The position numbers and the translations under genes were made by a program. A DNA stretch of 64,000 nt from Clostridiaceae bacterium Marseille-Q4143. GTDB lineage: Bacteria > Bacillota > Clostridia > Lachnospirales > Lachnospiraceae. How positions within the stretch are numbered: position 1 is the first letter of the stretch; every line of letters begins with the position of its first letter. The notes beneath the pieces are model-generated. The model saw only the letters and a program-made list of their open reading frames with translations, ran no database searches and had not been told where the DNA came from. The stretch is from contig CP073693.1 in assembly GCA_018228645.1 (NCBI GenBank), positions 1,386,001 to 1,450,000 of the forward strand. Reading direction: 5' to 3'. Of the stretch, positions 10,724 to 46,281 are shown piece after piece.

Positions 10724-10852
10724 ACCGATTTGACGAGGCAGGGAAGCAGCCAAAGAGGAAAATGGGTGATATTGACAAAACGAGATTAACACTTTCTTCA
10801 TAAACAGATTGCTTCTGATGACCAATGGAATCAATGGAAATACTATATTTAG

Positions 10853-10963
10853 AAATTCCAACCATTACCATGCTATATCTTGTATGATAATGGTTGGAAT
10901 TTTGTTATTTGCGCCAAATTTCCAACCATTAGTATATACGGGATGATTAGAATCATGTATAAA
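10853..10963 (+). promoter_or_regulatory. Long dyad operator/promoter element, copy 1
   Basis: The core dyad is formed by AATGGTTGGAA (ending 10899) and TTCCAACCATT (from 10920), separated by exactly 20 bases. A TATAAA -10 box starts 38 bases after the TTCC. The -35 position lacks a consensus hexamer (TATACG), which fits activation by a protein bound just upstream. A further arm at 10853-10871 pairs with 10884-10902 (19 bp, one mismatch) and is followed by a T-rich run, so it may also stop transcription from the MFS gene. The same element occurs at 14104 and 21098. Confidence 0.75.
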
Positions 10964-13990: not shown

Positions 13991-14103
13991 GAAGGCAATA
14001 TTTCCCTCGCAGCTGATCCATTTGGGGATATAGAATGTTTGTGCCTCTCCACGCTGACTACCAGCTGCTATTTTCTATCCAACCATTCGAATACTATATT
14101 TAG

Positions 14104-14214
14104 AAATTCTAATCATTGATATACTATATATTGTATACCAATGATTGGAATTTTGTTTTTTTGGCCAAATTTCCAACCATTAGCATATACAGGACGATGA
14201 AAATTATGTATAAA
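14104..14214 (+). promoter_or_regulatory. Long dyad operator/promoter element, copy 2
   Basis: The core is AATGATTGGAA (ending 14150), 20 bases, then TTCCAACCATT (from 14171). TATAAA starts exactly 38 bases after the TTCC, at 14209. As in copy 1, an extra upstream arm (14104-14124) can pair with 14133-14153 and is followed by a T run. The sequence AATACTATATTTAGAAATTC before the first arm is also shared with copy 1. The intergenic region 13991-14103 contains one more partial box (ATCCAACCATT at 14077). Confidence 0.75.
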
Positions 14215-18020: not shown

Positions 18021-19418
18021 ATGGGGGAGTATGTGAAAAATAAGAAGAAAATCCATGGTCTGCTAAGATATGGCCTTCTGGGATTTTTTGTTGTTATGGG
18101 AATAACCGGATGTGGCAGGGGAACGATGAAAGAGCCTGTCACCGTTACCATCTGGCATGTATATGGAGGGCAGGCAGAATCACCGCTGAATGATATGATT
18201 GCCCAGTTCAATGAGACCGTGGGAAAGGAAGAGAATATCCAGGTACAGGTAGGCAGTGTCACCAATACCAACACGATTCATGAGAGTGTGCTTTCCTCTG
18301 CCTTCGATGATCCGGGAGCGGAGGAGCTGCCGGATATGTTCGTCTCTTATCCCAAGACGGTGCTGGCCATGCCGGATGATTCGGTGCTGGTTGATTACCG
18401 GGATTATTTTTCAGAGGAAGAATTAGATCGTTTTATTCCGGCATTTCTTACAGAAGGACAGATCAATGATCGACAGCTTATCCTTCCGGTTGCAAAATCC
18501 ACCGAGGTCATGTTTGTGAATAAAACGGCATTTGACCGCTATGCCAAAGACAGCGGCGCTTCTCTTTCCGACCTGGAAACCTGGGAAGGTGTGTTTCGTC
18601 TGGCAGAAGATTATACAAAATGGACAGATGAGCAGACGCCGGATATAGAAGGAGATGGGAAGCCATTTTTCGTTCACGATTATCACTTTAACTATTTTCA
18701 GGTAGGGGTGGAGTCCTTAGGAGAATCTTTCTTTACGAAAGATGGAACAGGACTTGCCTTTGGTCCGGCCTTTGAACGGGTATGGGAACCTTATGCGGAT
18801 GCGGCTCTGCAGGGAGGAATCTGGCTGCAGGGAGGATACGCTACAGAACCACTGCGCACCGGGGATGCGATTGTGTCAGTGGCATCGTCTGCCAGTGTTC
18901 TGTATTATTCCGACACGGTCACGTATGCGGATAATACGACAGAGAAAGTGGACATTATCTCCATGCCATGTCCGGTTTTCGAAGACGGAGAAAAACTGGT
19001 GATGCAGCGGGGTGCTGGAATCTGTACCGTAAAGTCCACTCCGGAAAGAGAACAGGCCTGCATGACATTTTTAAAATGGCTGACAGATGCCCAGTGGAAC
19101 GTGGAATTTGTGACGCAGCTTGGCTATATGCCGGTGACGCAGGAATCCTTTGAAACCTATCTTCCGGATGCCGTGGCCAGGCTGCAGGATCCCATGTATC
19201 AGTCATTGTATCAGGCGTTCCAGCAGACCCAGGAGCAATATACATTCTACACGGCACCACAGTATGATGCTTATCTGGATCTGGAAACGAGATTTGAAGA
19301 ACAGGTTCGCCAGAAGCTTCAAATTGCGCGGCGTTCCTTCCTGAAATCTCCGGAGCAGTCAACGGAGGAACTTATACGGGCAACACTGGAAAGCTTTAAG
19401 CGGGATTATCAGCCATAA
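18021..19418 (+). CDS. Extracellular solute-binding lipoprotein (family 1), without transporter genes
   Basis: The 465-residue lipoprotein resembles carbohydrate-binding proteins of ABC importers. It has a signal peptide with lipobox ITGC, then VTIWHVYGGQAESPLNDMIAQFN, the usual family 1 opening. PDMFVSYPKTV and the ILPVAKSTEVMFVNKTAFDRY segment are further family features. No ABC permease or ATPase gene lies nearby. The next gene, 22 bp downstream, is a membrane-anchored LuxR regulator with a large extracytoplasmic part. The binding protein may therefore deliver a ligand to the sensor rather than to an importer; this is inference from gene order. Confidence 0.85.
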   Translation: MGEYVKNKKKIHGLLRYGLLGFFVVMGITGCGRGTMKEPVTVTIWHVYGGQAESPLNDMIAQFNETVGKEENIQVQVGSVTNTNTIHESVLSSAFDDPGAEELPDMFVSYPKTVLAMPDDSVLVDYRDYFSEEELDRFIPAFLTEGQINDRQLILPVAKSTEVMFVNKTAFDRYAKDSGASLSDLETWEGVFRLAEDYTKWTDEQTPDIEGDGKPFFVHDYHFNYFQVGVESLGESFFTKDGTGLAFGPAFERVWEPYADAALQGGIWLQGGYATEPLRTGDAIVSVASSASVLYYSDTVTYADNTTEKVDIISMPCPVFEDGEKLVMQRGAGICTVKSTPEREQACMTFLKWLTDAQWNVEFVTQLGYMPVTQESFETYLPDAVARLQDPMYQSLYQAFQQTQEQYTFYTAPQYDAYLDLETRFEEQVRQKLQIARRSFLKSPEQSTEELIRATLESFKRDYQP

Positions 19419-19440: not shown

Positions 19441-21039
19441 ATGAGTCACTTGTTTCATAAGATCAACTATTTACTGCGTCACTGGAATGAAGTCGGAGTA
19501 TCCATGCAGCGTAAGCTGACGATTTATTTTGCCTGTACGATTCTGGTGGTATATGCAGCCGCAGTGATCCTGATCCAGACGGCAGGTATTATGCCGGGAT
19601 CGGAGCGGAATCTGGGCGAAACGCTGACAGTACAGCATCAGAATACAGTCTCTGCCATGACAAAGCAGATGGATCTCCTGACGGCAAGAAGCATCAGACT
19701 TTCGGAAGAAATCACGTGGACAATGGAGCAGATTCTGATCGAACAGGGAAAGACATTTGCAGATATCAATAATAATCCCCAGCTGATTCTGGATCTTGAG
19801 GATTCTCTCTATGGAACATTGGAGACGGTCTTACGTTCTAATGCATGCAGCGGAGCATTTTTTATCCTGGATGCCACGGTGAATACAGAGGCAGAGTCTG
19901 CAGATACGTCACGAATGGGAGTCTACCTGCGGTTTTCCGATCTGAAAGCCGTCGGAACAGCCAACCAGCATATGGTATATTTCCGGGGTGCGGCAGATAT
20001 CGCCAGAAAAAAACAGATTCAGATGCATAATCGCTGGAATCTGGAGTTTGATACATCATTGATTCCGTGCTATGAAACACTTTTAGAATTTCGTCAGAGC
20101 CGTCTGGCAGAAGGAGCCATGTGGACGGAACGGATCCAGCTGAGCGATACGTGGGAAGATGTGATTCTGCTGTGCGTGCCGGTTCTGGATCAGAACGGAG
20201 TTCCCTGCGGGATCTGCGGAGTGGAACTTAGTCAGCTCTATTTTGTCCTTTCCTATCCGGCTACGGAAAGCCGGTTTGGAAATATGATTACACTCCTTGC
20301 CCCTGCAGAGGGCAGAAAATACGACTTGTCGAAATCCATGATCGGCAATGCGGCAGGAACCTACCTGAAACCGGATGGTCTTTTGAAGGTCAGAAATGGG
20401 AAATACTATCAGACAGCCACCACCGAAACGGATCGTTATTTTGGCTTTTCCAGTCCGCTGGATGCACGATTATGCAGCGGCCGGCAGCCTATGATTTTAA
20501 CTTTGCTGCCGGAGGAGAGTTATCATCAGGCATCTCTTCGGAGCCGCCAGATCTGGTATGCAGGAATCTTCGTGTTTCTGATTCTGATCCTTCTCATGGC
20601 GGGAGGTGCATCGGGACATTTTTCAGCTCCGATTGTGCGAAGCCTGAAGGCTGTGCAGCAGACAAAGACGGGAGAAGATGGCCAGAATGCCAGAATCCGT
20701 TCCGGCATCTCAGAGATTGATGCACTGGTATCTTTTCTGCAGACCAGAAGTCAGGAGCTAAAGACCAGTGAGCTGCCGCCGGAGATTGATGCCATGCTCC
20801 AGGAATTCAAAGTCCGGGTCGGAAGGCTGACACCTGCGGAATTATTGATTTTTCAGTTATTTATTGACGGATGTGATGTACAGACAGCTGCGGAGCGGAG
20901 CTTTGTCAGCGTGGCAACCGTGCGTAAGCATAACACCAGTATCAACCGAAAACTGGAAGTATCCAACCGGGAAGAACTGATGGTGTATGTGGACCTCTTC
21001 CGGCGGTGCGGCCGTCTGGATGAACTAAAAAACAGATAA
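19441..21039 (+). CDS. Membrane-anchored LuxR-type one-component regulator
   Basis: The 532-residue protein has a short cytoplasmic N-terminus and a membrane helix at about 27-48. An extracytoplasmic sensor follows at 50-365, probably Cache-like, with the late segment VPVLDQNGVPCGICGVEL typical of that fold. A second helix lies at 371-389. A short HAMP-like linker (SAPIVRSLKAVQQ) leads to a C-terminal LuxR/GerE helix-turn-helix at about 460-525: LTPAELLIFQLFIDGCDVQTA then VSVATVRKHNTSINRKL. It lacks kinase and receiver domains, so the sensor and DNA-binding part are in one chain. It is a natural candidate to bind the dyad elements at 10.9, 14.1 and 21.1 kb. Confidence 0.85.
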   Translation: MSHLFHKINYLLRHWNEVGVSMQRKLTIYFACTILVVYAAAVILIQTAGIMPGSERNLGETLTVQHQNTVSAMTKQMDLLTARSIRLSEEITWTMEQILIEQGKTFADINNNPQLILDLEDSLYGTLETVLRSNACSGAFFILDATVNTEAESADTSRMGVYLRFSDLKAVGTANQHMVYFRGAADIARKKQIQMHNRWNLEFDTSLIPCYETLLEFRQSRLAEGAMWTERIQLSDTWEDVILLCVPVLDQNGVPCGICGVELSQLYFVLSYPATESRFGNMITLLAPAEGRKYDLSKSMIGNAAGTYLKPDGLLKVRNGKYYQTATTETDRYFGFSSPLDARLCSGRQPMILTLLPEESYHQASLRSRQIWYAGIFVFLILILLMAGGASGHFSAPIVRSLKAVQQTKTGEDGQNARIRSGISEIDALVSFLQTRSQELKTSELPPEIDAMLQEFKVRVGRLTPAELLIFQLFIDGCDVQTAAERSFVSVATVRKHNTSINRKLEVSNREELMVYVDLFRRCGRLDELKNR

Positions 21040-21071: not shown

Positions 21072-21097
21072 ACTATATATAGTATATAATAATAATT

Positions 21098-21194
21098 GGC
21101 ATCAATATATTGTATGCGAATCATTGGAAATTTGTGAAAATCGTCAGATATTCCAATGGTTCGCATATATTTTTTCTGTAAAAACTGCTATGCT
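21098..21194 (+). promoter_or_regulatory. Long dyad operator/promoter element, copy 3
   Basis: TGTATGCGAATCATTGGAA (ending 21129) and TTCCAATGGTTCGCATATA (from 21151) form the core dyad with a 21-base gap. The -10 candidate TATGCT starts at 21189, again exactly 38 bases after the TTCC. Here the extra upstream hairpin of copies 1 and 2 is not formed, and a separate terminator precedes it. That argues the core dyad itself is the conserved, functional part. Confidence 0.75.
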
Positions 21195-21241: not shown

Positions 21242-22690
21242 ATGGGATTGATTAAAGCTGGTATGGGAGCATTAGGCGGCACACTTGCGGATCAATGGAA
21301 AGAGTTTTTCTATTGTGAGTCACTGGGCAAAGACGTATTGGTAACGAAGGGACAGAAACGTATCACAGGACGTTCATCCAATACGAAAGGAAATGACAAC
21401 ATTATTTCCAATGGAAGCGGTATCGCAGTTGCAGACGGACAGTGTATGCTGATCGTAGAGCAGGGAAGGGTCGTTGAGGTCTGTGCGGAGCCGGGAGAAT
21501 TTACGTACGATACTTCTTCGGAACCAAGTATCTTTGCAGGAAACCTGGGCGAGAGCATTCGTGAGACCTTCAAAGTAGTCGGCAAACGTTTTACCTTTGG
21601 CGGAGATACTGGAAAGGATCAGCGTGTTTACTACATTAACACAAAGGAGATGGGAGAGATCCTCTATGGAACAGCGACCCCGATTCCCTTCCGCGTAGTG
21701 GTAAATGAAGAGCTGGGATATAAACTGTCCGTAGATCTTCGCTGCAACGGTAATTTTACATATCGGATCAGTGATCCGCTTCTGTTTTATACCAATGTCT
21801 GCGGAAATGTAGAAAGCGACTATGAAAGCACGGAGATCGCACCTCGCTTAAAGGGAGAACTGATGACGGCTCTGCAGCCGGCACTGGCAACTCTTTCTGC
21901 AAAGAAGATTCAGTACTATGAGATTCCGGCCCACACCCTGGAGCTTTCGGATGCGTTGAATGATGTCCTTTCAAAAACCTGGAAGGAAAAACGTGGTATT
22001 GAGGTATTTTCTTTCAATATCAATTCCTTAAGCATTCCGGATGATCAGCGTCTGAAGCTGACCGAGTGGGAAGAAAATGCAATGACAACCAATCCGAATA
22101 CTGCGGCAGCCCGCCTGGTAGGAGGACAGATCGATGCTATGAAAGCAGCAGCAAACAACAATGCAGGAGCGATGACCGGATTCATGGGCATGGGTATGGC
22201 TATGAATGCAGGTGGAATGGGCGGCATGAATGCACAGAACCTGTTTGCAATGGGGCAGCAGCAGAATCAGGCGGCAGCACCACAGCCGGCACAGCCACAG
22301 GCGGCAGCAGCACCACAGCCTGCAGCAGATGGGTGGAAATGCCAGTGTGGAGCAACCGTTACCGGAAAGTTTTGCCCGGAGTGTGGAGCAAAGAAACCGG
22401 AGCCACAGCCGGCAGCAGGAAGCTGGACGTGTAAATGCGGAGCCACAGCTACCGGAAAATTCTGTCCGGAATGTGGTTCACCGAAGCCGGCAGACAGTGA
22501 CGGATGGACCTGTTCCTGTGGAACGGTGAATAAAGGAAAGTTCTGTCAGAACTGTGGCGCAAAGAAACCAGCCGGAGCACCTTTATACCGTTGTGATAAA
22601 TGTGGTTGGGAACCGGAAGATCCGGCACATCCGCCAAAATTCTGTCCGGAGTGCGGTGATCCGTTCGATGATGGGGATATTACAAACTAA
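21242..22690 (+). CDS. SPFH domain protein with four C-terminal zinc ribbons (YdjI-like)
   Basis: The 482-residue protein starts with an SPFH (stomatin/prohibitin/flotillin) domain at about 20-290, including DQRVYYINTKEMGEILYGT and YYEIPAHTLELSDALNDVL. A Gly/Met/Ala-rich linker follows. Then come four zinc ribbons: WKCQCG...FCPECG, WTCKCG...FCPECG, WTCSCG...FCQNCG and YRCDKCGWEP...FCPECG. It resembles Bacillus YdjI, which with YdjG and YdjH recruits a PspA protein to stressed membranes, but that protein has fewer ribbons. No membrane helix is seen, so it should be peripheral. It opens the operon behind dyad copy 3, with AAAGGAG before the ATG. Confidence 0.88.
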   Translation: MGLIKAGMGALGGTLADQWKEFFYCESLGKDVLVTKGQKRITGRSSNTKGNDNIISNGSGIAVADGQCMLIVEQGRVVEVCAEPGEFTYDTSSEPSIFAGNLGESIRETFKVVGKRFTFGGDTGKDQRVYYINTKEMGEILYGTATPIPFRVVVNEELGYKLSVDLRCNGNFTYRISDPLLFYTNVCGNVESDYESTEIAPRLKGELMTALQPALATLSAKKIQYYEIPAHTLELSDALNDVLSKTWKEKRGIEVFSFNINSLSIPDDQRLKLTEWEENAMTTNPNTAAARLVGGQIDAMKAAANNNAGAMTGFMGMGMAMNAGGMGGMNAQNLFAMGQQQNQAAAPQPAQPQAAAAPQPAADGWKCQCGATVTGKFCPECGAKKPEPQPAAGSWTCKCGATATGKFCPECGSPKPADSDGWTCSCGTVNKGKFCQNCGAKKPAGAPLYRCDKCGWEPEDPAHPPKFCPECGDPFDDGDITN

Positions 22691-22724
22691 AGACTGACTG
22701 ACAAAAAGGAAGGGAGAATTATAG

Positions 22725-23825
22725 ATGGGATTTTTTGATAAAAAGTATTGTGATGTGTGTGGAGAAAAGATCGGTCTTCTTGGCAACCGGAAATTAGAGG
22801 ATGGAAACCTCTGTAAAGATTGTGCGGCAAAGCTTTCCCCATTTTTCTCTGAGAGAAAATCATCTACGGTGGAGGAGATCAAACAGCAGCTGGCTTACCG
22901 TGAAGAAAACCAGCGCCAGATCGCAAGCTTCCGGGCAACCCGTATCATCGGTGATCGGATGAAGGTGATGGTTGATGAGCTGGGAAAACGTTTTGTTGTC
23001 ACCTCTTCCAGTGATATTTTAAAGGCGAATCCGGATATCATTCCTCTTTCCGATGTGATTTCCTGTAATCTGGATCTGCAGGTGGATGACACGGAACTGA
23101 AGAAGGAGGATGCCCAGGGGAAGGAAGTCAGTTATAATCCGCCGAGATTCTGCTATTCCTATAACTTCTATATTGAGATTTCAGTCAGACATCCGTGGTT
23201 CAGCCAGATTCGTTTCCGCCTGAACTCGAGTGATATTGAGATTGTGGATGAGGCTACCGGTATGGGTGCCGGCATGGGAAGAATGATGGGCAGCCGCCGC
23301 CAGAGCATGGTACATCCGGAGTACAATATGGATTACCGTAAGTACCAGCAGATGGCAGATGAAATCGTAGCTGTTCTGACCGGTCAGCCGACAGCGAGAA
23401 GTGTGGCAGCAAATGTGATTAACAATATGGGTGATGGTCAGGGATTTGTCAATTCCGTTGTGAGTGGAATTGGTGCAGGTGCAGGCATGGCTGGCGCCGG
23501 AATGATGCAGAATCCGAACATGATGCAGGGCCAGGCAGGGATGCAGAATCCGAACATGATGCAGGGTCAGGCAGGAATGCAGAATCCGAACATGATGCAG
23601 GGTCAGGCAGGGATGCAGAATCCGAACATGATGCAGGGCCAGACAGGGATGCAGAATGGAAGCTGGGTCTGCTCCTGTGGCATGACAAATACCGGAAGAT
23701 TCTGTCAGAACTGTGGTTCTCCGCAGCCGGCAGCACGGCGTCTCCGCTGCAGCAACTGTGGCTGGGAGCCGACAGATCCGACACATCTGCCGAAATTCTG
23801 CCCGCAGTGCGGAAGTCCATTATAG
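22725..23825 (+). CDS. Zinc-ribbon protein with DUF4428-like N-terminus
   Basis: The 366-residue protein opens with YCDVCGEKIGLLGNRKLEDG and LCKDCAAKL, a treble-clef-like zinc site of the DUF4428 kind. A PH-like middle part contains ISVRHPWFSQIRFRL. The linker has about four copies of the 12-residue unit NMMQGQAGMQNP. The C-terminus has two zinc ribbons (WVCSCG...FCQNCG and RRLRCSNCGWEP...FCPQCG) very like those of the SPFH protein 35 bp upstream. The shared ribbons suggest that both bind the same partner. AAGGGAGAA precedes the start. Confidence 0.82.
   Translation: MGFFDKKYCDVCGEKIGLLGNRKLEDGNLCKDCAAKLSPFFSERKSSTVEEIKQQLAYREENQRQIASFRATRIIGDRMKVMVDELGKRFVVTSSSDILKANPDIIPLSDVISCNLDLQVDDTELKKEDAQGKEVSYNPPRFCYSYNFYIEISVRHPWFSQIRFRLNSSDIEIVDEATGMGAGMGRMMGSRRQSMVHPEYNMDYRKYQQMADEIVAVLTGQPTARSVAANVINNMGDGQGFVNSVVSGIGAGAGMAGAGMMQNPNMMQGQAGMQNPNMMQGQAGMQNPNMMQGQAGMQNPNMMQGQTGMQNGSWVCSCGMTNTGRFCQNCGSPQPAARRLRCSNCGWEPTDPTHLPKFCPQCGSPL
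23505..23656 (+). repeat. 36-bp tandem coding repeat
   Basis: About four near-identical units encode Met/Gln/Asn/Gly-rich peptide (unit NMMQGQAGMQNP) in the linker of the zinc-ribbon protein. Unit sequences differ only at a few silent positions, which indicates recent expansion. Confidence 0.9.
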
Positions 23826-23870
23826 CAGAGAGCTAGCAGAGAAAACAGCAGCAAAAGGAGGTGCTGATTT

Positions 23871-25046
23871 ATGAAGAACAGAAGAATTTTAACAGTTGTA
23901 CTGGCAGTGATTATGGCATTTGGCCTGGTTGCATGCGGCGGAGGTAATAAACCGGCAGAGACCGATGCCGCTGAGCCTGAAACGAAAGAGACAACAGAAG
24001 AAGAAACAAAAGTGGACGAACCAAAAGAGGAAGAAGGGAAAGTGGAAGAGGCTGAGCCGGAAGAGCCTCAGTCCAGAATTCCGGAGAATGCCACAGAGTT
24101 TCTGCTGACAAATCCGAAGCTTCAGGCACAGGCAAGTTTCTATCTTCCAAAGTTTGACTCTGAATGGGAGGTTGAGCTTTTAAGTGGTACGGATCCGGTG
24201 AACGTAGAACAGAGATACCTGTATGAAGCAAAGATTTCGGATGAGATGTCAGCACACGTGGATGCACGCCTTACTGCTACAACAACGGAGAATCTTCCCG
24301 CAATCATGGAGAAGGGAGAGAAAGTGAAAGTGTCCGGTCATGATGCAGTGTATGAAGAGGATACTACTAGCTGGAAATACACCGTTGATATGGGACCTTA
24401 TGCGGATGGAGTGGAAATGTATATGAATTTCAAATTCTATACCGGCGATGAGGATTTCAAGGATGTTAAAGAATTGGCAGAAACAAGAGATATGATGCTG
24501 GAAACTCTGTCTGCAACCACCGATTATGAGGGCAAGGAAGACAGAAGCGGCCGTCTCTATCAGGGCAGTGGCCTTTGTTCTCTTCCGATGACCTTTGACT
24601 ATAACGGTCAGGAAGTTGAAGTGAAGCAGGAACTAAGAAGAGCAAGTGTTTATGCGCTGGCGGCAGAAATACAGGAAGATGGCGATATTCCGCTGTGTAT
24701 CACTGCAGAAATCGACAATACTTGTCAGAATTCTTATATGGAAGTAACGGAAAGCGATGGCTATGTAGACTGCACGATTGCAGGCTATCCTGGCAAGTTA
24801 AAACAGGTGGAGTATCCGTCTTATGTAGAGAATTATGTACGTCTGACGGTAAGTGATGTTAATTATGAGATGTATGCATCTACTTCTGTGGACACGGATA
24901 AAATTACAGATGCAATCGCTTTGGCATCCGCAACGAAGGCTTTTAAGGAGGATATGGCCTCTCAGTACCAGAAGAGCTTAGATTTCCTGGAAGCTATGGT
25001 ATCCGCAGCTGAATTCAGAGATATTAGTGAGGACTGGCTTAAATAA
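23871..25046 (+). CDS. Lipoprotein of the SPFH operon
   Basis: The 391-residue product has a signal peptide ending in the lipobox LVAC, a Glu/Lys/Thr-rich linker to about residue 75, and a globular domain without recognised family. Two halves may be related: each has a strand pattern followed by an ARLT/YVRLTVSD-like segment. The start has AGGAGG nine bases upstream. It is the first of several lipoproteins in this operon, so the system probably acts at the outer face of the membrane. Confidence 0.8.
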   Translation: MKNRRILTVVLAVIMAFGLVACGGGNKPAETDAAEPETKETTEEETKVDEPKEEEGKVEEAEPEEPQSRIPENATEFLLTNPKLQAQASFYLPKFDSEWEVELLSGTDPVNVEQRYLYEAKISDEMSAHVDARLTATTTENLPAIMEKGEKVKVSGHDAVYEEDTTSWKYTVDMGPYADGVEMYMNFKFYTGDEDFKDVKELAETRDMMLETLSATTDYEGKEDRSGRLYQGSGLCSLPMTFDYNGQEVEVKQELRRASVYALAAEIQEDGDIPLCITAEIDNTCQNSYMEVTESDGYVDCTIAGYPGKLKQVEYPSYVENYVRLTVSDVNYEMYASTSVDTDKITDAIALASATKAFKEDMASQYQKSLDFLEAMVSAAEFRDISEDWLK

Positions 25047-25079
25047 GTAACGGCAGAGAGAAGGAAGGGAGGACAGAGT

Positions 25080-26177
25080 ATGGGAAATATTCAGGAATAT
25101 AAATGTCCATGCTGTGGCGGTGCCATTGTTTTTGACAGCGCCATTCAGAAGATGAAGTGCCCCTGCTGTGATACAGAATTTGAGATGGAGGCGCTGCAGG
25201 GATATGATGACGCTTTAAAGCAGCAGGAGCAGGGCGATGATATGACATGGGATACTGCGGCGGGAAGCGAGTGGCAGGACGGAGAGGAAACGGGACTGCG
25301 TACCTATCAGTGTAAATCCTGTGGCGGTGAGATCGTGGGAGATGAAAGTATGGCCGCCTCTTCCTGCCCATACTGTGGCAATCCGATTGTTTTGATGGGG
25401 CAGTTTTCGGGAGATCTCCGCCCGGATTATGTGATTCCGTTTAAGCTGGACAAAAAGGCAGCGAAGGCAGGCCTCATGAAGCATTTGAATGGAAAACGTC
25501 TGCTTCCGAAGATTTTCAAAGATCAGAATCATATTGATGAGATTAAAGGAGTATATGTGCCCTTCTGGCTGTTTGACACCAATGTAGATGCCAATATCAG
25601 TTATCGGGCGACAAAGGTAAGAACCTGGAGTGACAGCAAATATGATTACACGGAGACGCGGTTTTTCATGTTAAGCAGAGGCGGAACCATTGGATTTGAG
25701 CGGGTGCCGGTAGATGGCTCCAGCAAGATGGAAGATGATCTGATGGAATCCATTGAGCCCTTCGATTTTAGCGAGGCGGTTCCATTCCAGACAGCCTATC
25801 TTGCCGGTTATATGGCTGACAAATATGATGTGTCTGCGGAAGAAAGTATTGAACGCGCCAATGTCCGTGTGAAGAAATCAACGGAAGATAATTTCCGATC
25901 CACGGTGCAAGGCTACAGCACCGTCACTGTGGAACAAAGCAGTGTACACTTTCATGATGGAAGTGCGAAATATGCGCTGTATCCGGTATGGATTTTAAAT
26001 ACGACATGGAATGGAAAGCAGTACCGGTTTGCCATGAATGGGCAGAATGGAAAATTTGTCGGAGACCTTCCTGTGGATAAGAAGGCGGCAAACCGCTGGA
26101 TGATTCTTTCAACAGCTGCCATTGCAGCGGCGGCTTATGGTATCAGCTGGCTGTTGTGGCTGGCACGTATTTTATAG
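25080..26177 (+). CDS. Double zinc-ribbon membrane protein (YdjG-like)
   Basis: The 365-residue protein begins with two TFIIB-like zinc ribbons: YKCPCCGGAIVFD...MKCPCCDTEFE and YQCKSCGGEIV...SSCPYCGNPI. A beta-rich domain follows, with VIPFKLDKKAAKAGL and the segment GVYVPFWLFDTN. One membrane helix closes the chain (about 341-363). This layout matches YdjG-type proteins, often misnamed as primosomal or helicase proteins because of the zinc ribbon. In Bacillus the partner of such a protein is the SPFH protein, which here starts the operon. A second, longer version is at 30067. Confidence 0.85.
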   Translation: MGNIQEYKCPCCGGAIVFDSAIQKMKCPCCDTEFEMEALQGYDDALKQQEQGDDMTWDTAAGSEWQDGEETGLRTYQCKSCGGEIVGDESMAASSCPYCGNPIVLMGQFSGDLRPDYVIPFKLDKKAAKAGLMKHLNGKRLLPKIFKDQNHIDEIKGVYVPFWLFDTNVDANISYRATKVRTWSDSKYDYTETRFFMLSRGGTIGFERVPVDGSSKMEDDLMESIEPFDFSEAVPFQTAYLAGYMADKYDVSAEESIERANVRVKKSTEDNFRSTVQGYSTVTVEQSSVHFHDGSAKYALYPVWILNTTWNGKQYRFAMNGQNGKFVGDLPVDKKAANRWMILSTAAIAAAAYGISWLLWLARIL

Positions 26178-26193
26178 AAAGGGGGTAAGACAG

Positions 26194-27015
26194 ATGAAAA
26201 GGATGCTGAAACAACTTGCGTGTATGACAGCTGCCGTGCTTCTGGCTGTATCGTCTTTCCCGGCTGCGGCAATGGCTTCGGAAGGATTTACGGGAGAGTA
26301 TGAACGGCTGATCGACATGGCAGATCTTCTGACCTATGAGGAAGAGTCTGAGTTACTTGAAACCTTAAATGAGATCAGTGAGCGGCAGAAAATGGATATT
26401 GTAGTGATCACGTCGGAAGACATGGATGGTTACACCGATATTCAGGAGTATGCGGACGATCTGTATGATTACTGTGACTACGGTTATGGAGCAAACAGGG
26501 ATGGATTGCTGCTGCTTATCAGCATGGAAGAGCGTGACTGGTATATTTCCACCTGTGGTTATGGAATTACAGCCTTTACAGATGCGGGAATCAGTTATCT
26601 TGGCAGTGCGATGAAAGAAGACCTTTCCTCCGGAAATTATGCTTCTGCATTCGATACCTATGCATCCGAGTGTGATCAGCTGATCACGCAGGCAAGAGAA
26701 GGCCATCCATTTTCAAAAAAGGATCTGCCCCATGCCCCGTTGTCACCGCTGGTACTTCCTATTTGCATTGTGATTGGTCTGGTCGGCGCCCTTCTTATCG
26801 TGGGAAGTATGAAGGCGCAGCTGAAAACGGTGCGTAAACAGACGGCGGCAGCGAATTATGTAAGAAAAGGAAGTATGCAGCTTGCGACCCAGCAGGATTT
26901 GTTCCTGTACAGTAAAGTGGATCGGGTAAAGAAGCCGGAAAAGGACAGCTCCGAAAGCAGCACCCACACTTCTTCGTCAGGAACGACCCATGGTGGAGGC
27001 GGTGGAAGCTTCTAA
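26194..27015 (+). CDS. TPM domain membrane protein (YdjH/YgcG-like)
   Basis: The 273-residue protein has a signal peptide (LLAVSSFPAAAMA) and an extracytoplasmic TPM domain: RLIDMADLLTYEEESELLETL, DIVVITSEDMDG, then NRDGLLLLISMEERDWYIST. One membrane helix follows (LPICIVIGLVGALLIV), then a cytoplasmic tail ending in a Gly/Ser run. This is the standard layout of TPM proteins. The start at 26194 has AGGGGG upstream; the open frame extends further upstream but lacks a site. With the SPFH and zinc-ribbon proteins it completes a YdjGHI-like set. Confidence 0.87.
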   Translation: MKRMLKQLACMTAAVLLAVSSFPAAAMASEGFTGEYERLIDMADLLTYEEESELLETLNEISERQKMDIVVITSEDMDGYTDIQEYADDLYDYCDYGYGANRDGLLLLISMEERDWYISTCGYGITAFTDAGISYLGSAMKEDLSSGNYASAFDTYASECDQLITQAREGHPFSKKDLPHAPLSPLVLPICIVIGLVGALLIVGSMKAQLKTVRKQTAAANYVRKGSMQLATQQDLFLYSKVDRVKKPEKDSSESSTHTSSSGTTHGGGGGSF

Positions 27016-27049
27016 GGGACTCCGGAAAGCCAGTGGAAAAGGAGGTGGT

Positions 27050-28102
27050 ATGTACATGAAAGTCCTGGCAAGTGCTGTGACATTTGTACTCATGTTAGCA
27101 GTGGCAGGCTGTGGTAAGAAAGCGGAAGTGGCGGCTGTGGACCCGGTAGAACCTGTCCGTGAGGAAAGGGAAGAACCGGAAGAATCCGCCAATGCCGATG
27201 TTGAGGAATCGGAAGAACCAGCCGATGCAGACATGGCAGATATGGAAGAGCCGGAAGAACCCGCCGGTGCAGATATGGAAGAATCGGAAGAAGCTGCCGG
27301 ACAGGGATTTGAAAGAGTGGAAAACCAGTCTGCCTGGAATGGTACATATTACCGCGAAGACGGAGAATATATCACGGTGTATGACACGGATGAAGATTAT
27401 CTGTTTCTTTCTTACCCGGAGAGCAACTACGAGCATATGGTAGATATTCTCCAGTTTACGGATGCCGGAAAAACCCAGGCAGTCTCCGCGACACAGGATA
27501 TAACGGCGGTTTATACCTTGTCGGGGGATGTCCTCTCGGTGGATTTTGGTACGGCATATATTCCATTTATGCAGGGAGAGTATTACAGAAAAAAAGATGC
27601 CTCCTGCTGGATGACAGAGATAGACGGAACCGACAGGTATCTGGATGAAACAGGTAATATTCTGCGTAACCATATGACTCCGGATGGCTGGTATACGGAT
27701 GAAAATGGCAGAAAAATGTGGCAGATAGGGATGCCGCTGATTACGCCGGGGCTTTATGAATCCATGCCGGCATATTCGGCAAGAGAAGGCTATGAGACAT
27801 GGAGCTTCAGTATGTATAGTGGAGCAGGGGATTCCGGATTTTTCAACAGTCCGGATGACCGGCTTGAGGTCGGAACGGTGGATTATACCGTGTACGATCA
27901 TGAGATGAATCCCTATTACACAAAGGAAGCAATGTATGTATATAATTCACCCCGTGGTTATGTGATCGAGGATGTGGCAGGACAGGAATTTGCCTGGTTT
28001 TATCCTTCGATTCACTGGAATGACCTGATGATCCAGATGTATGGGACAGAGACCTACCATACGGTGCGTCTGGTAGAGGATTACTCAGATTATGGGGGAT
28101 AA
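27050..28102 (+). CDS. Lipoprotein with acidic linker
   Basis: The product of about 350 residues has the lipobox VAGC and a Glu-rich linker of repeated EEPEE/EESEE units to about residue 85. The domain behind it begins with NGTYYREDGEYITVYDTDE, a lipocalin/META-like strand pattern. The function is unknown. Either ATG at 27050 or ATG at 27056 could start it; AGGAGG ends 4 or 10 bases before them. It belongs to the SPFH operon. Confidence 0.75.
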   Translation: MYMKVLASAVTFVLMLAVAGCGKKAEVAAVDPVEPVREEREEPEESANADVEESEEPADADMADMEEPEEPAGADMEESEEAAGQGFERVENQSAWNGTYYREDGEYITVYDTDEDYLFLSYPESNYEHMVDILQFTDAGKTQAVSATQDITAVYTLSGDVLSVDFGTAYIPFMQGEYYRKKDASCWMTEIDGTDRYLDETGNILRNHMTPDGWYTDENGRKMWQIGMPLITPGLYESMPAYSAREGYETWSFSMYSGAGDSGFFNSPDDRLEVGTVDYTVYDHEMNPYYTKEAMYVYNSPRGYVIEDVAGQEFAWFYPSIHWNDLMIQMYGTETYHTVRLVEDYSDYGG

Positions 28103-28151
28103 TCTGACAGAGGTATCATTTTAAAATCCGGATGTTGAGGAGGGATGGCAG

Positions 28152-29531
28152 ATGGGAAAAAGAGGAAACACGAGAAAGAAGAAAGGGATGCTTCTGGCAG
28201 TAGTCATGTTGCTCTGCGCATTTCTTACCGGCTGTGGCCTCCTCGATATCAGGGACGGCGGATCAGGGATGACCAACCCGGATTATAACCCGGATGATAT
28301 AGAACTGGAAGAAGCTCAGCCGGAAGAATCCCAGCCGGAAGAAGAAGCAACCACGAGTGACCATGCGGAATTTCCGGATTTGGGAGAGCCCCAAAAAGAA
28401 GGTACGGCTTCCTGGCTTACGGAGGCGGGGAAAGCGGCATTGGTGGAAGAACAGGAATGGCTGAGAGATCAGGGGGCAGTATTTGGTGCTTCATTTCTGG
28501 GTTATACGCCAGATTACAGCTTCCCGGGAAAAGAATATCAAAGAGCTGAGACCTATCCGTATTTGGAAGGAATCCCGGAAGACCATATCATAGAATATAC
28601 AGGGGATGAGTGGTATGTGATCGTTCCGGCAGAAGATGGGTGGAAGATGTCCATAGAGTCCTGCAGCTGGAATGATGACTTTACGGAAACCAGTACAGAG
28701 GAACTGCTATGGGAAAGTGATGATGGCCTTCCTCTGATCTTACAGTGTAATCTCAGTGATCTTTATCCCAATGTACAGGTCACGGCCAGAAAAGGAAGCA
28801 GGGAGGTTTCCTGGAAACCTTATTATCTTACCTATGCCGGAGAGATCGAGCCGGCAGACGGAGTGAAGCAGCTTTTATCAGGTTCCTACATGCCGGAGGA
28901 GGGATATCTCTACGGAATGGAAGGAAGCTGGTATTGCGATTCTGCGAAAACAGATGCGGGTGAACCTTATTTTTACAGTGTTACTTTCCTGACGGGCGAG
29001 AGTGGATATCCTTCGGATATGTGGTATTATGGGGGTCTTTTGGATGGAGAGATGGAGGATATCCGTTTTTTCTGGGATGGCTATTATGCTTATGGGGATC
29101 CTCAGGTGGAGTCACTGGAATTCTGGCTGAACACGCCGGATGGAACCCGAAGCGGTACGATCCGGCTGGAGCTGGAAGGAGACTGCCTGACTATTCGTGA
29201 AATGGAAGGAGAAGCCTTTTTCCCATTTACGAGCGGGGCAGTGGAAAAATTCTACCTGCGTCCCGTAGCAGCAGCCGGGGAAAATTATGATTATTCCGGC
29301 AATGAAATCGATGTGCTGCTTGCACAATCTGAAGTACAGGAGAGACTGGAACTTGGTATGGCAATCCGGGATGTGGACGGTATGGAGACTATCCAGGGGG
29401 AAGCCTGTGTGCTCTTTGCCCTTGGAACAGAGCATCCGGACCAGTTCGTAGCAGAATATTATTATGCGGTATCCCCATCCGGACTCGTTTATCGAATGGA
29501 TGATCTGACCGGAGAATGGGAACCGATCTAA
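28152..29531 (+). CDS. Lipoprotein of the SPFH operon
   Basis: This is a 459-residue lipoprotein: a basic N-terminus, a hydrophobic stretch, the lipobox LTGC, then a Gln-Pro-Glu-Glu linker like the one in the large surface protein at 14285. The remaining 400 residues are rich in Trp, Tyr and acidic residues, with WYCDSAKTDAGEPYFYSVTF and EIDVLLAQSEVQERLELGM. I do not recognise a family. The start follows GAGGAGGG. Confidence 0.72.
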   Translation: MGKRGNTRKKKGMLLAVVMLLCAFLTGCGLLDIRDGGSGMTNPDYNPDDIELEEAQPEESQPEEEATTSDHAEFPDLGEPQKEGTASWLTEAGKAALVEEQEWLRDQGAVFGASFLGYTPDYSFPGKEYQRAETYPYLEGIPEDHIIEYTGDEWYVIVPAEDGWKMSIESCSWNDDFTETSTEELLWESDDGLPLILQCNLSDLYPNVQVTARKGSREVSWKPYYLTYAGEIEPADGVKQLLSGSYMPEEGYLYGMEGSWYCDSAKTDAGEPYFYSVTFLTGESGYPSDMWYYGGLLDGEMEDIRFFWDGYYAYGDPQVESLEFWLNTPDGTRSGTIRLELEGDCLTIREMEGEAFFPFTSGAVEKFYLRPVAAAGENYDYSGNEIDVLLAQSEVQERLELGMAIRDVDGMETIQGEACVLFALGTEHPDQFVAEYYYAVSPSGLVYRMDDLTGEWEPI

Positions 29532-29543
29532 AGGAGGGATATG

Positions 29544-30041
29544 ATGAGCGAGATAACATTGAACAGACTTCCAAAAACATTACAGGAATTACAGGCAATG
29601 CCCCAGGCAGGATTGACAAACCCGGAGGAAGTGGCTGCTTTGACGGTGGCAGCCCTTGCTCTTTATCCTGAGAATCCATCTGAAACGGAAAAAATGCTGG
29701 ATTTTCTGCGGGGCCCCAGACCGTTGAATGGAATCGACAAACAGTTTATAAGAGACAGATTCCGTGGAAAAGAGTATCTGATGCGTTCCTATTTTTCCGG
29801 CTCTTCTCCGGAGAATAATTATACTCCGGGACAGCCCTACCGGGTTGCGGTATCAGAAAACGCCTACAGCAGAACCCAGATAGGGGAAGGATATCTGACC
29901 TTATATGTGGCATGCAGCGGCGCAGACAGTCCGAGACCGTTAAAGCTCCGGAAGAAGCCATCTACAGGACAGTGGTTCTTGTGGGAACAGCAGCTCTTAA
30001 CCGGAATCCGGATACCAAAAGAAGCAGATCCCTGGGCATAA
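29544..30041 (+). CDS. Conserved small cytoplasmic protein (possibly DUF6935)
   Basis: This 165-residue soluble protein has no signal peptide or membrane helix. Features are an N-terminal helix pair (SEITLNRLPKTLQELQAM, then TNPEEVAALTVAALALYP) and a beta-rich second half containing YTPGQPYRVAVSENAYS. From memory this resembles DUF6935 proteins, which also occur beside TFIIB-type zinc-ribbon genes; I am not certain. The second ATG (29544) has better spacing to GGAGG than the first (29541). It lies between YdjG-like and lipoprotein genes. Confidence 0.6.
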   Translation: MSEITLNRLPKTLQELQAMPQAGLTNPEEVAALTVAALALYPENPSETEKMLDFLRGPRPLNGIDKQFIRDRFRGKEYLMRSYFSGSSPENNYTPGQPYRVAVSENAYSRTQIGEGYLTLYVACSGADSPRPLKLRKKPSTGQWFLWEQQLLTGIRIPKEADPWA

Positions 30042-30066
30042 GAACAGGGTCAGGGGAGGATAGGGT

Positions 30067-31689
30067 ATGAATCAGGGAAAGATTATGACCATTCACTGTG
30101 CCACCTGTGGCGCACCTGCCCAGTTTGATGTTGTGACACAGAATTACCATTGTCCGAACTGCGGAGGAAATACAGGAACAGAGATTCCCTTAAAAAAGCT
30201 ACGGGAATTTCGAAGTCTTACAAAAACTTTGTTAGAGCAGGAGCTTCCGGACAGTCAGACGATTGCCTGTGAGTGTCCGAATTGCGGAGCACGGGTGATT
30301 GTGAAAGAACATGAAGTGGCAGAGACCTGTATTTTCTGCCAGTCCAAGGTTTTGCGCTCGGATGTCCAGATGGGAGAAGGTTTCCCGGAGGTGCTGATTC
30401 CTTTTAAACTGAATCGGAAACAGGCAGAAAAACGACTGGATGAATGGATTGAGCAGCATCATGATAAAAACGAAGCTCAGATTTTAAAGGAAAATAAGAA
30501 AAAATTAAAAGGAATTTATCTGCCATATGAACTGATCCGCGGGCCTATCCGGTTTGTTGTGACCAGAGACAATTCCAACAGACATTATGAATGCGGAGGA
30601 TTTCTGGAGCATGTGGCAGTCAATGTGACGGATCGCTGCAACAATCTGTTATTAAATGGAATGGAACCATTTTTGTGGGATGAACTGGAGCCATTTCAAT
30701 TTGGATATATTGCAGGCCATGCAGCAGAGGTTCCGACTGCAGATGGCGCGGAGTTAAGACGCCGTGTGTTTGAAGAGGTGGCAGAGGAATATCGCCCGAC
30801 TGTGGAGCGCACGATGCAGACAACCGGACTATCACTGTATCCGGAGTCAGAAGCATTGCTTCGTCTGCCGGCATTTCTTCCGGTCTATTTTATGGATTGC
30901 GGAGAGGTGCAGGCGGCAGTGAACGGGCAGACAGGAAAAGTATCTGTATTGGCGGAAAAAGAAACCAGGACCTATCCCTGGGTGATCGAGCCGCTTCTTG
31001 GAACGCTGGCAGTGATGATTTTTTTCTTTTTTGCATTCCGGAATTATGGCGGAGTGCCGATGGATCTGAAGGAACTGTTTGAACTGGTTGGCATGGCTGG
31101 ACTGCTGGCGGCGCTGATTCTGTTTACGGTGTTCAGTAAGGGAAGAGAGGCCAGAGTTCGAAGAAAGATTCTTAAGAGTATCAGCGAAGAAGATAAGAAG
31201 AAACCGGAAGATACCATAAAACCGGTGTTCTTTGAAAGAATTGGCGGACAGGAACTTCCGGTACAGCTGGGATTCTACTCTTCGGGACGTATCGTAAAGA
31301 TTGTGATGATCCTTCTGCTGGTGAATGCTTCCACCTGCATTCTGGCATGGATCCTTACTGCATTTAAGTGTATGGGTTCCGGTGACTGGACCCTGTTCCA
31401 GCAGCTGGATTATAGTTACAATAACATCTGGCTGTGTCTGTCACTTCCGATTTCTATGGCAGGATTTGCAGTATTTGGGCGAATAGAGGTCTATGATTCG
31501 CCGGTGATCTTTCAGCTTCTGGAAAATGGAAAACGAAAACGCATTCGCCAGAAGAGAGAGAATAGGAAAACCCTACTTATGCGTTGGAAGAATGTCAGGG
31601 AGGCGATGGGAAACTGGGCGTTTCCGTTACTCATTGTATTACCATTATATGCCATGACTGTTTATATGATCATGAATCCCTGGCCATAG
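30067..31689 (+). CDS. TFIIB-type zinc-ribbon membrane protein, long YdjG-like paralogue
   Basis: The 540-residue protein has two N-terminal ribbons (IHCATCGAPAQFD...YHCPNCGGNT and CECPNCGARV...TCIFCQSK). A domain like that of the 25080 protein follows (VLIPFKLNRKQAEKRLDEW, GIYLPYELIRG). The second half has about five membrane helices, against one in the shorter paralogue. The ribbons face the cytoplasm. The paralogues share order and spacing, so this is a duplication with an enlarged membrane part. Confidence 0.8.
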   Translation: MNQGKIMTIHCATCGAPAQFDVVTQNYHCPNCGGNTGTEIPLKKLREFRSLTKTLLEQELPDSQTIACECPNCGARVIVKEHEVAETCIFCQSKVLRSDVQMGEGFPEVLIPFKLNRKQAEKRLDEWIEQHHDKNEAQILKENKKKLKGIYLPYELIRGPIRFVVTRDNSNRHYECGGFLEHVAVNVTDRCNNLLLNGMEPFLWDELEPFQFGYIAGHAAEVPTADGAELRRRVFEEVAEEYRPTVERTMQTTGLSLYPESEALLRLPAFLPVYFMDCGEVQAAVNGQTGKVSVLAEKETRTYPWVIEPLLGTLAVMIFFFFAFRNYGGVPMDLKELFELVGMAGLLAALILFTVFSKGREARVRRKILKSISEEDKKKPEDTIKPVFFERIGGQELPVQLGFYSSGRIVKIVMILLLVNASTCILAWILTAFKCMGSGDWTLFQQLDYSYNNIWLCLSLPISMAGFAVFGRIEVYDSPVIFQLLENGKRKRIRQKRENRKTLLMRWKNVREAMGNWAFPLLIVLPLYAMTVYMIMNPWP

Positions 31690-31740
31690 AGCGCCCGAAA
31701 AGAGCAGTGACGCATGATCTGGAAAGAGAGGGGTGGGAAG

Positions 31741-32583
31741 ATGAAGAAAACCCAGAAACCAAGAAAAAATAAAAAAACAGGTGCGGTTATCGTGATACTG
31801 CTCGGCTTACTTTGTGCTGTCTCTACCGTGAAATCGTGTGGTACAAAGCGTGCGGCTATGCAGGAAAAAGTGGATGATGTGGTATATGTAGGACAGGGCA
31901 GCTATGAACCGGCAAATGATGGAAAGATTGTGATTGTCTGCGGAGAACTGAAGGTTCTGGAACCGGCTTATGATGACGAACTGGGACTCACGATCCATGC
32001 TCCGCGTGCCATGCGAAGCGCACAAAAACTGAAGAAGAAAGAATGGAATGGTTCGATGACAGAGTCGAATAGGGAATGGAATTCCGATCTGGGCGTGGGC
32101 GGAATGGAAATCTTCCAGGGCGCAGCAGATGTGGGAGCTTATCATCTGTCCGAGGAATTTATCGAACAGCTTATGCTGGCAAGACAATACGAATTTGATG
32201 AGGAGACGCTATCTGAGGCAGGACTTGCGATTCTCACAGACCGGAAATACAGCGGTGAAAAATTTATCGGAACCCAGCGAATGGGCAGAGGGGTTTTCAA
32301 GGAAGGTGATCGGCGTTATTATTATTCCGTTCCTTTTCAGAGTGATGGGGATATGGTGACGGTAATTGGTATTCAGGAGCAGGGGACCCTGACCTATGTA
32401 AAAGGGGCGACACCCAATATGTTAAGCGGAGAACTGGATAAAAAAACTGCACTACAAAAAAGCGGCATGTCTTCCGGCGGAGTCAGTATTTTCAGAGTTG
32501 TGCTAACTATTTTACTGCTGTCAACAGGCATCCGGATGCTCTTGAAGAAGCGTGATCAAAAAGAAGACGGAAGTGGCTTATGA
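31741..32583 (+). CDS. TMEM43-like membrane protein
   Basis: The 280-residue protein has a membrane helix near the N-terminus (AVIVILLGLLCAVST). Its extracytoplasmic domain has features of the TMEM43 (DUF1625) family: EPANDGKIVIVCGELKVLEP, then the late strand RRYYYSVPFQSDGDMVTVIG. It closes with another helix (VLTILLLSTGIRMLL). The classical family has several C-terminal helices, so this is a reduced form. The start at 31741 has GGTGGGA upstream. Its TGA overlaps the ATG of the next lipoprotein gene. Confidence 0.65.
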   Translation: MKKTQKPRKNKKTGAVIVILLGLLCAVSTVKSCGTKRAAMQEKVDDVVYVGQGSYEPANDGKIVIVCGELKVLEPAYDDELGLTIHAPRAMRSAQKLKKKEWNGSMTESNREWNSDLGVGGMEIFQGAADVGAYHLSEEFIEQLMLARQYEFDEETLSEAGLAILTDRKYSGEKFIGTQRMGRGVFKEGDRRYYYSVPFQSDGDMVTVIGIQEQGTLTYVKGATPNMLSGELDKKTALQKSGMSSGGVSIFRVVLTILLLSTGIRMLLKKRDQKEDGSGL

Positions 32584-33161
32584 AAAAAGGCAAGAAAGGC
32601 TGGTTCTTGCTGATGGCATTTACTACGTGGGCGGCGTTGATCGCAGGCTGCGGAAAGTGGCCTGGAAATAAGCCGGATAAAGTTCCGGAAGTCACGACGG
32701 CAGGAGCAGAAACAGATCCTGCAGAAAATCCGGAAAATGGTCAGGTTACGCCGCTTCCGGATATTCAGGAGCTGACGTATTATGTGCATGGAACGATGAT
32801 GGAACCGATCTGGAGCGTAAGCCTGCTCCGACAGGGAGAGGAAGCGCTGGTACGGATAGAGCCATGGGATGGGGAAGAAGAGGAGTCTTTTGACTATCCG
32901 GTGGCTGCAGAGACCCTTGAGAAAGCACGCAGGATTCTGGAAACCTATGATGTGGCATCCTGGGCAGGCTTTCGTGGAAGCGATCCCAATGTCTTAGACG
33001 GATCTTCCATGAGCTTTCAGGTGGAATTTGTGGATGGAAGCAGGATAGAAGCCTTCGGTGAGAACAAATTTCCCAAAAACTACCATGATGTTTTCTCGGA
33101 GCTGGATGACCTGACGGCTGATGCGCAGAACGCATTTTACAGGAAACAGGGCATGAGTTAG
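32580..33161 (+). CDS. Lipoprotein, last gene of the SPFH operon
   Basis: This 193-residue lipoprotein has the lipobox IAGC. The domain behind the linker includes IQELTYYVHGTM and a strand pattern ending in QVEFVDGSRIEAFGENKFPKN. That pattern is seen in other small Clostridia lipoproteins of unknown function. It starts within the stop of the TMEM43-like gene (TTATGA), which indicates translational coupling. Confidence 0.75.
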   Translation: MKKGKKGWFLLMAFTTWAALIAGCGKWPGNKPDKVPEVTTAGAETDPAENPENGQVTPLPDIQELTYYVHGTMMEPIWSVSLLRQGEEALVRIEPWDGEEEESFDYPVAAETLEKARRILETYDVASWAGFRGSDPNVLDGSSMSFQVEFVDGSRIEAFGENKFPKNYHDVFSELDDLTADAQNAFYRKQGMS

Positions 33162-33185: not shown

Positions 33186-33214
33186 TTGACATAGTAGGAA
33201 TATGGATATATGAT
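33186..33214 (+). promoter_or_regulatory. Consensus promoter for the HD hydrolase gene
   Basis: TTGACA (33186-33191) and TATGAT (33209-33214) are 17 bases apart, a near-perfect housekeeping promoter about 30 bases before the gene. Confidence 0.85.
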
Positions 33215-33246
33215 GAAATACAAATAGAACGAAGGAGATGGACGGC

Positions 33247-35712: not shown

Positions 35713-36276
35713 ATGAAGAGATTACTGATTCTTACTGGGGATGTGGCAGCCGGAAAATCTACGTTTGCGGAGATACTTTCCAAACGGTATCAGACAAATG
35801 TATTTTATAAAGATAAAATCAAAGAAGTGCTTGGCGATGTGATCGGATTTTCCAACAGAGAAGAAAATCTGAAATTGTCCGATGCGGCGGTACAGCTGAT
35901 GATTCGTACCTTTGAGGAGTTTGCAAAGCTGGAGAAATCGTTGATTCTGGAGGCAAATTTCCATAAAAGGGAATTACAGCAGCTTCAGGACATTGCAAAA
36001 ACATATGATTATGAAGTGATGACGCTGGTGCTGGAGGCGGATCTTCATATTTTACATGAGAGATATATGAACCGGATGAAGTATGAAAACCGACATCCGG
36101 TTCATATGAGTGCCAGACAGGATCGTTTCGAGGATTTCAAGGATTATGTGGAATGCGCACGGAAAGAAGGCACAGTTGGAACGGTGATAAAGATCTGTGC
36201 GGATGACTTTTCCTATCGGACGGATGAAGAACTGCTGCAAAAGATTGACTGTTTTATGAAGGAGCCAGCACGGTAA
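35713..36276 (+). CDS. P-loop kinase-like ATP-binding protein (AAA_33 type)
   Basis: The 187-residue protein has a Walker A motif in LILTGDVAAGKSTFAE and an Arg-rich lid (HERYMNRMKYENRHPVH). It resembles the AAA_33 / zeta-toxin-like small kinases that phosphorylate nucleosides, sugars or RNA ends. The length fits a complete one-domain kinase. The substrate is not evident. Its stop is followed at once by the ATG of a broken FGGY sugar kinase gene. Confidence 0.78.
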   Translation: MKRLLILTGDVAAGKSTFAEILSKRYQTNVFYKDKIKEVLGDVIGFSNREENLKLSDAAVQLMIRTFEEFAKLEKSLILEANFHKRELQQLQDIAKTYDYEVMTLVLEADLHILHERYMNRMKYENRHPVHMSARQDRFEDFKDYVECARKEGTVGTVIKICADDFSYRTDEELLQKIDCFMKEPAR

Positions 36277-43785: not shown

Positions 43786-43822
43786 AACAAAAAAGACAAT
43801 GTTATCAATGGAGGGATACAAA

Positions 43823-44455: not shown

Positions 44456-44482
44456 TTACAACAGGAATCCCAGAATGTAAAA

Positions 44483-44532
44483 GGGCCGCTCTGCATTGTC
44501 TGTGTATGTCATGGACGGCAGGGCGGTTCTTG
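44483..44532 (+). terminator. Hairpin between corrinoid protein and RACo genes
   Basis: CCGCTCTGC pairs with GCAGGGCGG (one wobble pair) around a 22-base loop, followed by TTCTTGTTCT. It may be a leaky terminator that lowers expression of the activator gene, which is needed only in catalytic amounts. Confidence 0.6.
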
Positions 44533-44561
44533 TTCTATAATAAATACCGGAGGGATAAGAC

Positions 44562-46271: not shown

Positions 46272-46281
46272 GGAGAAAACC

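Follow-up and report, generated by a model that had tools for sequence, protein, structure and literature searches.

SPFH, YdjG, and TPM proteins have been described as partners of PspA or as its anchors at the membrane (PMC8581546, PMC11237479), statements on published systems here being confined to the parts of the cited papers that were available. Results from Bacillus subtilis point to membrane anchoring by YdjG and TPM (PMC8581546), and band-7 and TPM proteins have been proposed as chaperone-like assembly factors (PMC11237479). Because the neighbourhood survey of PMC11237479, in its available part, takes PspA homologues as its starting point, a PspA-free branch of these proteins would be invisible to it, and the available parts of PMC8581546, PMC11237479, PMC9239133, PMC10936438, and PMC12419801 hold no description of a PspA-free SPFH-YdjG-TPM branch, subscription papers lying outside what could be searched. 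Here we describe a block of 11 genes built around these three proteins at 21242–33161 of a 64,000-nucleotide stretch (the window) of Clostridiaceae bacterium Marseille-Q4143, a member of the Lachnospiraceae (assembly GCA_018228645.1, contig CP073693.1, positions 1,386,001–1,450,000). With a PspA-free branch one can ask what the SPFH-YdjG-TPM trio does alone, whether proteins with more ribbons have more partners, and by which signals the trio is driven through the linked sensors.

The core trio compared with pspA-ydjGHI

As in B. subtilis pspA-ydjGHI (PMC8581546, PMC11237479), the locus encodes an SPFH protein with ribbons at its C terminus and without a transmembrane (TM) segment of its own (gene 1, 21242–22690), a YdjG-like protein with two ribbons and a C-terminal hydrophobic segment (gene 4, 25080–26177, hereafter YdjGa), and a YdjH-like TPM-domain protein with two hydrophobic segments (gene 5, 26194–27015). 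Both Pfam matches passed their curated cut-offs (gene 1, Band_7_1, PF13421, E 1.5e-18, 67.6 bits, cut-off 24; gene 5, TPM, PF04536, E 2.7e-30, 105.4 bits, cut-off 22.1). The locus differs from pspA-ydjGHI in that pspA is missing, the SPFH gene stands first rather than last and encodes 482 amino acids (aa) with four zinc ribbons (∼22340–22654), and genes 2 and 3 sit between SPFH and YdjG; it further adds a second YdjG, a DUF4428 protein, a DUF6935 protein, a TMEM43-like protein, and four lipoproteins. Operons in which Band-7/flotillin proteins have YqiJ/YuaF-like partners, described around PspA in the available part of PMC11237479, also combine a Band-7 scaffold with membrane partners; among the 11 genes here, PspA, the flotillin domain, and a YqiJ/YuaF-like partner are all lacking.

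To place the locus, we surveyed 299 genomes of one family, 212 of which had matches to YdjGa and 89 of which had the PspA family (PF04012) above its cut-off. Among the 150 YdjG matches listed, PspA lay within 3 kb of 0/15 at an identity of at least 60%, 0/25 at 50–59%, 0/22 at 44–49%, 0/16 at 39–43%, and 16/72 at 30–38%; none of the 62 relatives at 44% or more therefore had PspA within 3 kb. A search with one PspA sequence found no match among the open reading frames (ORFs) of the window at E 0.01, in agreement with a first-pass annotation of the window that had seen no PspA gene nearby.

From the 16 PspA-linked loci found, 11 were selected for PspA adjacency, a choice that leaves only ribbon number, gene order, and the length of SPFH as independent features. 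In all 11, the SPFH gene was 3′ of YdjG and encoded a protein of 321–353 aa with a single ribbon. In the group to which the window's locus belongs (the SPFH-first group), SPFH was 5′ of YdjG in 67/68 cases with SPFH detected, and the 70 SPFH proteins that gave a match to gene 1 (some genomes counted twice, one divergent paralogue, L082, included) had two ribbons in 16 cases, three in 39, four in 14, and five in one. The multiplication of ribbons is supported. A tree of 77 YdjG rows, with B. subtilis YdjG itself outside it and a bootstrap not fully settled (0.988), separated the SPFH-first, PspA-linked, and gene 9 kinds into three supported branches; the window's YdjGa fell apart from the PspA-linked YdjGs of the same family, and two further paralogues, L081 and L082, whose branches are long, lay next to the PspA-linked and SPFH-first groups. 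Overall, judged by sequence comparison, the SPFH-YdjG-TPM core is a branch separate from the PspA-linked one and not an enlarged pspA-ydjGHI. Of the earlier description of the locus as an extension of YdjGHI, the kinship stands, SPFH, YdjG-like, and TPM homologues lying close together, but the word extension is imprecise, because the core forms a clade of its own and gene 9 belongs to yet another, the third.

Conservation across relatives

A search of genome contigs with gene 4 gave 144 related stretches (top identity 77%), the best 80 of which were kept; with 10 further loci, among them two retrieved through DUF6935 (L128 and L138) and one through gene 10 (L157), the set came to 90 core loci, in which genes were called mechanically as longest ORFs, those truncated by a contig end included. 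The TPM cluster was in the operon run of 82/90 core loci and the SPFH/DUF4428 cluster in 65/90. DUF6935 was found in 15/90 (13 within the 80 that came from the gene 4 search alone), DUF4428 in 12/90, a gene-7-type lipoprotein in 8/90 (immediately 5′ of SPFH in L003, L005, L006, L157, and L159), and the TMEM43-like gene in 1/90, namely L157, itself fetched for that gene. Genes 3, 6, and 11 had zero matches in the 80 loci at 1e-5; at 1e-3 in a wider set, a single match appeared for gene 3, there was still none for gene 6, and the one for gene 11 was weak (24 bits) and lay beside DUF6935 in L133. A ribbon-TM-ribbon protein that is not in the window occurred in 8/90 core loci, a DUF3592-like protein in 7/90, a seven-transmembrane (7TM) sensor in 13/90, and its response regulator in 16/90. 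The probe counts therefore indicate that, at the level of sequence, the SPFH-YdjG-TPM core is the conserved unit and the remaining genes are shuffled. The full 11-gene set was in none of the fetched loci, and 18/90 core loci had other, shuffled accessories; conservation of all 11 genes as one unit across these relatives, as first envisaged, was accordingly rejected. For Hominiventricola and Eubacterium ramulus, the comparison covered protein matches.

Organization and predicted proteins of the block

Gene order and coordinates were read from the window, and lipobox signals and the likely starts at 26194 (gene 5), 27050 (gene 6), and 31744 (gene 10) were judged by eye. The 11 ORFs run head to tail on the + strand with intergenic gaps of −4 to 54 bases, and a consensus scan of the region found no terminator-like site in the gaps between them. 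Because a promoter-like site (33186–33214; a consensus match only, in a scan that gave 23 sites in the region versus 17.8 expected) precedes the HD gene at 33238, an end of the block at 33161 is plausible. Strand, spacing, and Pfam matches agreed with the 11 genes of the first-pass annotation and with its parts list (SPFH with four ribbons, a further ribbon protein, two YdjG-like proteins, TPM, TMEM43-like, four lipoproteins, and a small soluble protein), TMEM43 remaining below its cut-off.

Gene 1, gene 2 (22725–23825, 366 aa, with a 36-base tandem repeat at 23504–23657), and gene 8 (29541–30041, 166 aa) have no hydrophobic segments in a simple scan and are predicted to be cytosolic. The same scan predicts genes 4, 5, 9, and 10 to be membrane proteins, and the lipoproteins, each with a lipobox-like signal, are predicted to lie outside (gene 3, 23871–25046, 391 aa; gene 6, 27050–28102, 350 aa, no Pfam family above cut-off; gene 7, 28152–29531, 459 aa; gene 11, 32580–33161, 193 aa, no Pfam match). 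Gene 2 matched DUF4428 (E 2.2e-18) and, slightly below the 27.3 cut-off, a double zinc ribbon (25.7 bits). Gene 8 matched DUF6935 (PF22043, E 9.1e-62, 208.2 bits, cut-off 27). As a separate observation, contig 119 of G164 gave three DUF6935-like matches in frames open for 1140 aa, probably one protein.

Cys-knuckle pairs number four in gene 1, three in gene 2 (one N-terminal, two C-terminal), and two each in genes 4 and 9, and the CxxC count equalled the maximum of 1000 shuffles for gene 1 and exceeded it for genes 2, 4, and 9. The last two ribbons of gene 1 and the two C-terminal ribbons of gene 2 are 64% identical over 53 residues. Gene 9 (30067–31689, hereafter YdjGb), a 540-aa YdjG-like protein with ∼five hydrophobic segments, is homologous to gene 4 (5e-18), with two N-terminal ribbons in each; a recent duplication of gene 4 was rejected as its origin, given their separate clades in the tree. 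Among 120 of 522 matches listed (best 7995 candidates scored), the relatives of gene 9 at 71–93% are presumably of the same lineage and are followed by a wide ∼540-aa family at roughly 32–39%, whose members are named for, among others, Selenomonadaceae, Phascolarctobacterium, and Erysipelotrichaceae. The gene 9 model was good (predicted local distance difference test score (pLDDT) 86.3) and had no match of note in the PDB.

Gene 10 (31744–32583, two hydrophobic segments) reached 20.3 bits against TMEM43 (PF07787), under the curated cut-off of 23.3, and is hence called TMEM43-like only. Its relatives, among 120 of 568 matches listed, include proteins of Clostridiaceae bacterium Marseille-Q4145 (94%) and Eubacterium ramulus (92%), and the gene was present in 2/397 genomes. 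In both other genomes with the gene, it adjoins, by eye, a ribbon-TM-ribbon protein (L158, 9370–11599; L157, 1011–2911); in the window, its neighbour is YdjGb.

The gene 3 model contains two Mog1/PsbP-like domains (residues 72–217 and 229–383) with moderate support and a mean pLDDT of only 63.7, and the lipoprotein may be a tandem Mog1/PsbP-fold protein. The predicted fold of both domains and the envelope location would be shared with Mog1/PsbP-fold envelope proteins such as LpqN, from which gene 3 differs in having no Pfam match above cut-off, in its tandem pair, and in its linkage to an SPFH operon. Among 120 of 149 matches listed, the relatives of gene 3, one of them at 94% and named for Hominiventricola filiformis (Lachnospiraceae), fall into two ectodomain classes with near-identical signal and linker segments. 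Compared with P0175, gene 3 is 100% identical in the signal, 89% in the linker, 85% in residues 69–95, and 83% in residues 206–240, and 39–48% identical in the remaining ectodomain; compared with P0150, the pattern is the opposite (46% and 42%, then 78% and 94–97%). These protein data fit an exchange of ectodomains. Metagenome contig sizes of 20,890 and 26,063 recur among the listed relatives of gene 3 (54%) and gene 10 (95%), which suggests that the two may share those contigs. In a further relative of gene 3, P0162, the N terminus matches the start of the window's surface protein at 14285, through recombination or misassembly.

Candidate regulators and inverted repeats

Directly 5′ of the block, and outside the 11 genes first annotated, are up2 (18021–19418, + strand), an SBP_bac_8 solute-binding protein, and up1 (19441–21039, + strand), a predicted membrane sensor and candidate regulator that joins a pair of hydrophobic segments to a LuxR (GerE) helix-turn-helix at its C terminus; orthologues of both lie 5′ of SPFH in L001 and L010. 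Elsewhere the core is flanked by a triad in which a 7TM sensor (HisKA_7TM) is accompanied by a response regulator and by a kinase-like protein that contains a PAS domain. In 36 core genomes, searches for the 7TM protein gave 19 matches, spread over 16 genomes, nine of the matches within 13 kb of the core (nine genomes, one of them the query's own); without the query's own, 8/18 were within 13 kb versus ∼0.16 expected, matches on other contigs being scored as unlinked and the 13-kb limit having been chosen after the distances were seen. L124 also has this triad, next to DUF6935 and apart from the usual SPFH core, as does L122, where the orientation is mixed.

In three intergenic regions (10829–10936, 14081–14181, and 21091–21167), the half-site AATNATTGGAA is paired with its inverse; the regions lie 5′ of, respectively, a beta-helix protein that is lipoprotein-like (11002), a surface protein with InlB repeats (14285), and the SPFH operon; at the last, an inverted repeat with 17-nucleotide arms and one mismatch spans 21113–21167. 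The window contains seven loose pairs, all in these three regions (mean 0.35, largest 2, in 20 Markov sequences), and four strict pairs (mean 0.01 in 200 Markov sequences), figures that are generous because the window also supplied the definition of the motif. It is possible that the paired half-sites are a shared operator. A different, looser repeat pattern was not convincing.

Discussion

We favour, with a probability of about 0.45, an envelope-spanning SPFH scaffold, independent of PspA and regulated by signals, as the product of the locus. Comparison provides the conserved core in its own clade, the gain of ribbons, the shuffled accessories, and the linked regulators, and we infer the remainder of the mechanism. 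The SPFH protein would oligomerize under the membrane, anchored by YdjGa, YdjGb, and the TPM and TMEM43-like proteins, with YdjG/TPM anchoring carried over by analogy from B. subtilis (PMC8581546). The ribbons of SPFH and gene 2 would form a multivalent docking tail, the outer-face lipoproteins and the TPM domain would sense or bind damaged envelope material, and up1 would switch the operon on, as the 7TM-sensor triad would elsewhere. Under envelope stress, such a scaffold would most likely serve to assemble or repair membrane complexes or to control their quality. A bolder form of this scaffold, which we regard as rather unlikely, is a modular trans-envelope machine in gut Clostridia, in which docking ribbons are gained with accessories and swappable PsbP/Mog1-fold ectodomain lipoproteins (as sensors or chaperones) and plug-in sensor-regulators are fitted to one PspA-independent core.

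Several results weigh against the scaffold. Any link of the cluster genes to stress and any interaction among their products are predictions; the gene 3 model is weak, with no match by Foldseek alone at E 0.001; SPFH was undetected within 3 kb of 32/100 group YdjG ORFs, partly through incomplete loci; and a distant PspA could yet lie elsewhere in the organism's genome, the search having covered the window's ORFs. Further, because 72/90 core loci, many of them incomplete, had none of seven accessory probes (DUF6935 aside), genes 2, 3, and 6–11 may be bystanders. DUF6935 is itself mostly elsewhere in the genome: among 34 of 42 neighbourhoods fetched (E 8e-17 or weaker for the eight left out), three (L128, L132, and L138) contained all or most of the core, and a fourth, L122, a divergent YdjG-like gene. 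It could be that only the trio is functional and that the other eight are unrelated surface and cytosolic genes, which share its promoter by accident of a variable locus, as would also suit the missing matches to genes 3, 6, and 11 and the rarity of the TMEM43-like gene. We consider this somewhat unlikely, however, because DUF6935 occurs in 13 of the 80 gene-4-fetched loci although only 38/299 family genomes have it anywhere, against an estimated chance of its falling in a 20-kb neighbourhood of ∼0.1% of genomes (the two samples differ). Extra ribbons also go with accessories, at least four being found in 9/15 accessory-rich loci versus 6/51 others with usable SPFH (related genomes are not independent), and the TMEM43-like gene stands beside a ribbon-membrane protein in all three loci inspected by eye.

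The pairing of a TPM (Psb32) domain with PsbP-fold proteins on the outer face would also suit a chaperone for membrane-protein assembly or repair, parallel to photosystem II upkeep, which we hold to be improbable. Least probable is a locus for defence against phage or against other bacteria, in which the surface lipoproteins diversify: the two ectodomain classes of gene 3 behind a near-identical signal and linker, together with the varying accessory content, would be expected of one, but PADLOC gave only weak matches over parts of the proteins, none of them convincing, for the 10/11 proteins scanned (gene 11 left out; best PDC-S64, 5e-4, residues 47–95 of gene 9), so that a known defence system is not supported. 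A mobile or phage origin is likewise not supported for gene 4, the only gene tried, which had no relatives in viral contigs and 12 plasmid matches, all below 32% identity.

Other features of the window

Elsewhere, the window encodes an 826-aa protein with an N-terminal TIR domain (3686–6166), a small AAA_33/zeta-toxin-like protein (35713–36276), and a corrinoid-type gene group (42970–46821; pterin-binding, B12-binding, RACo, and DUF2284).
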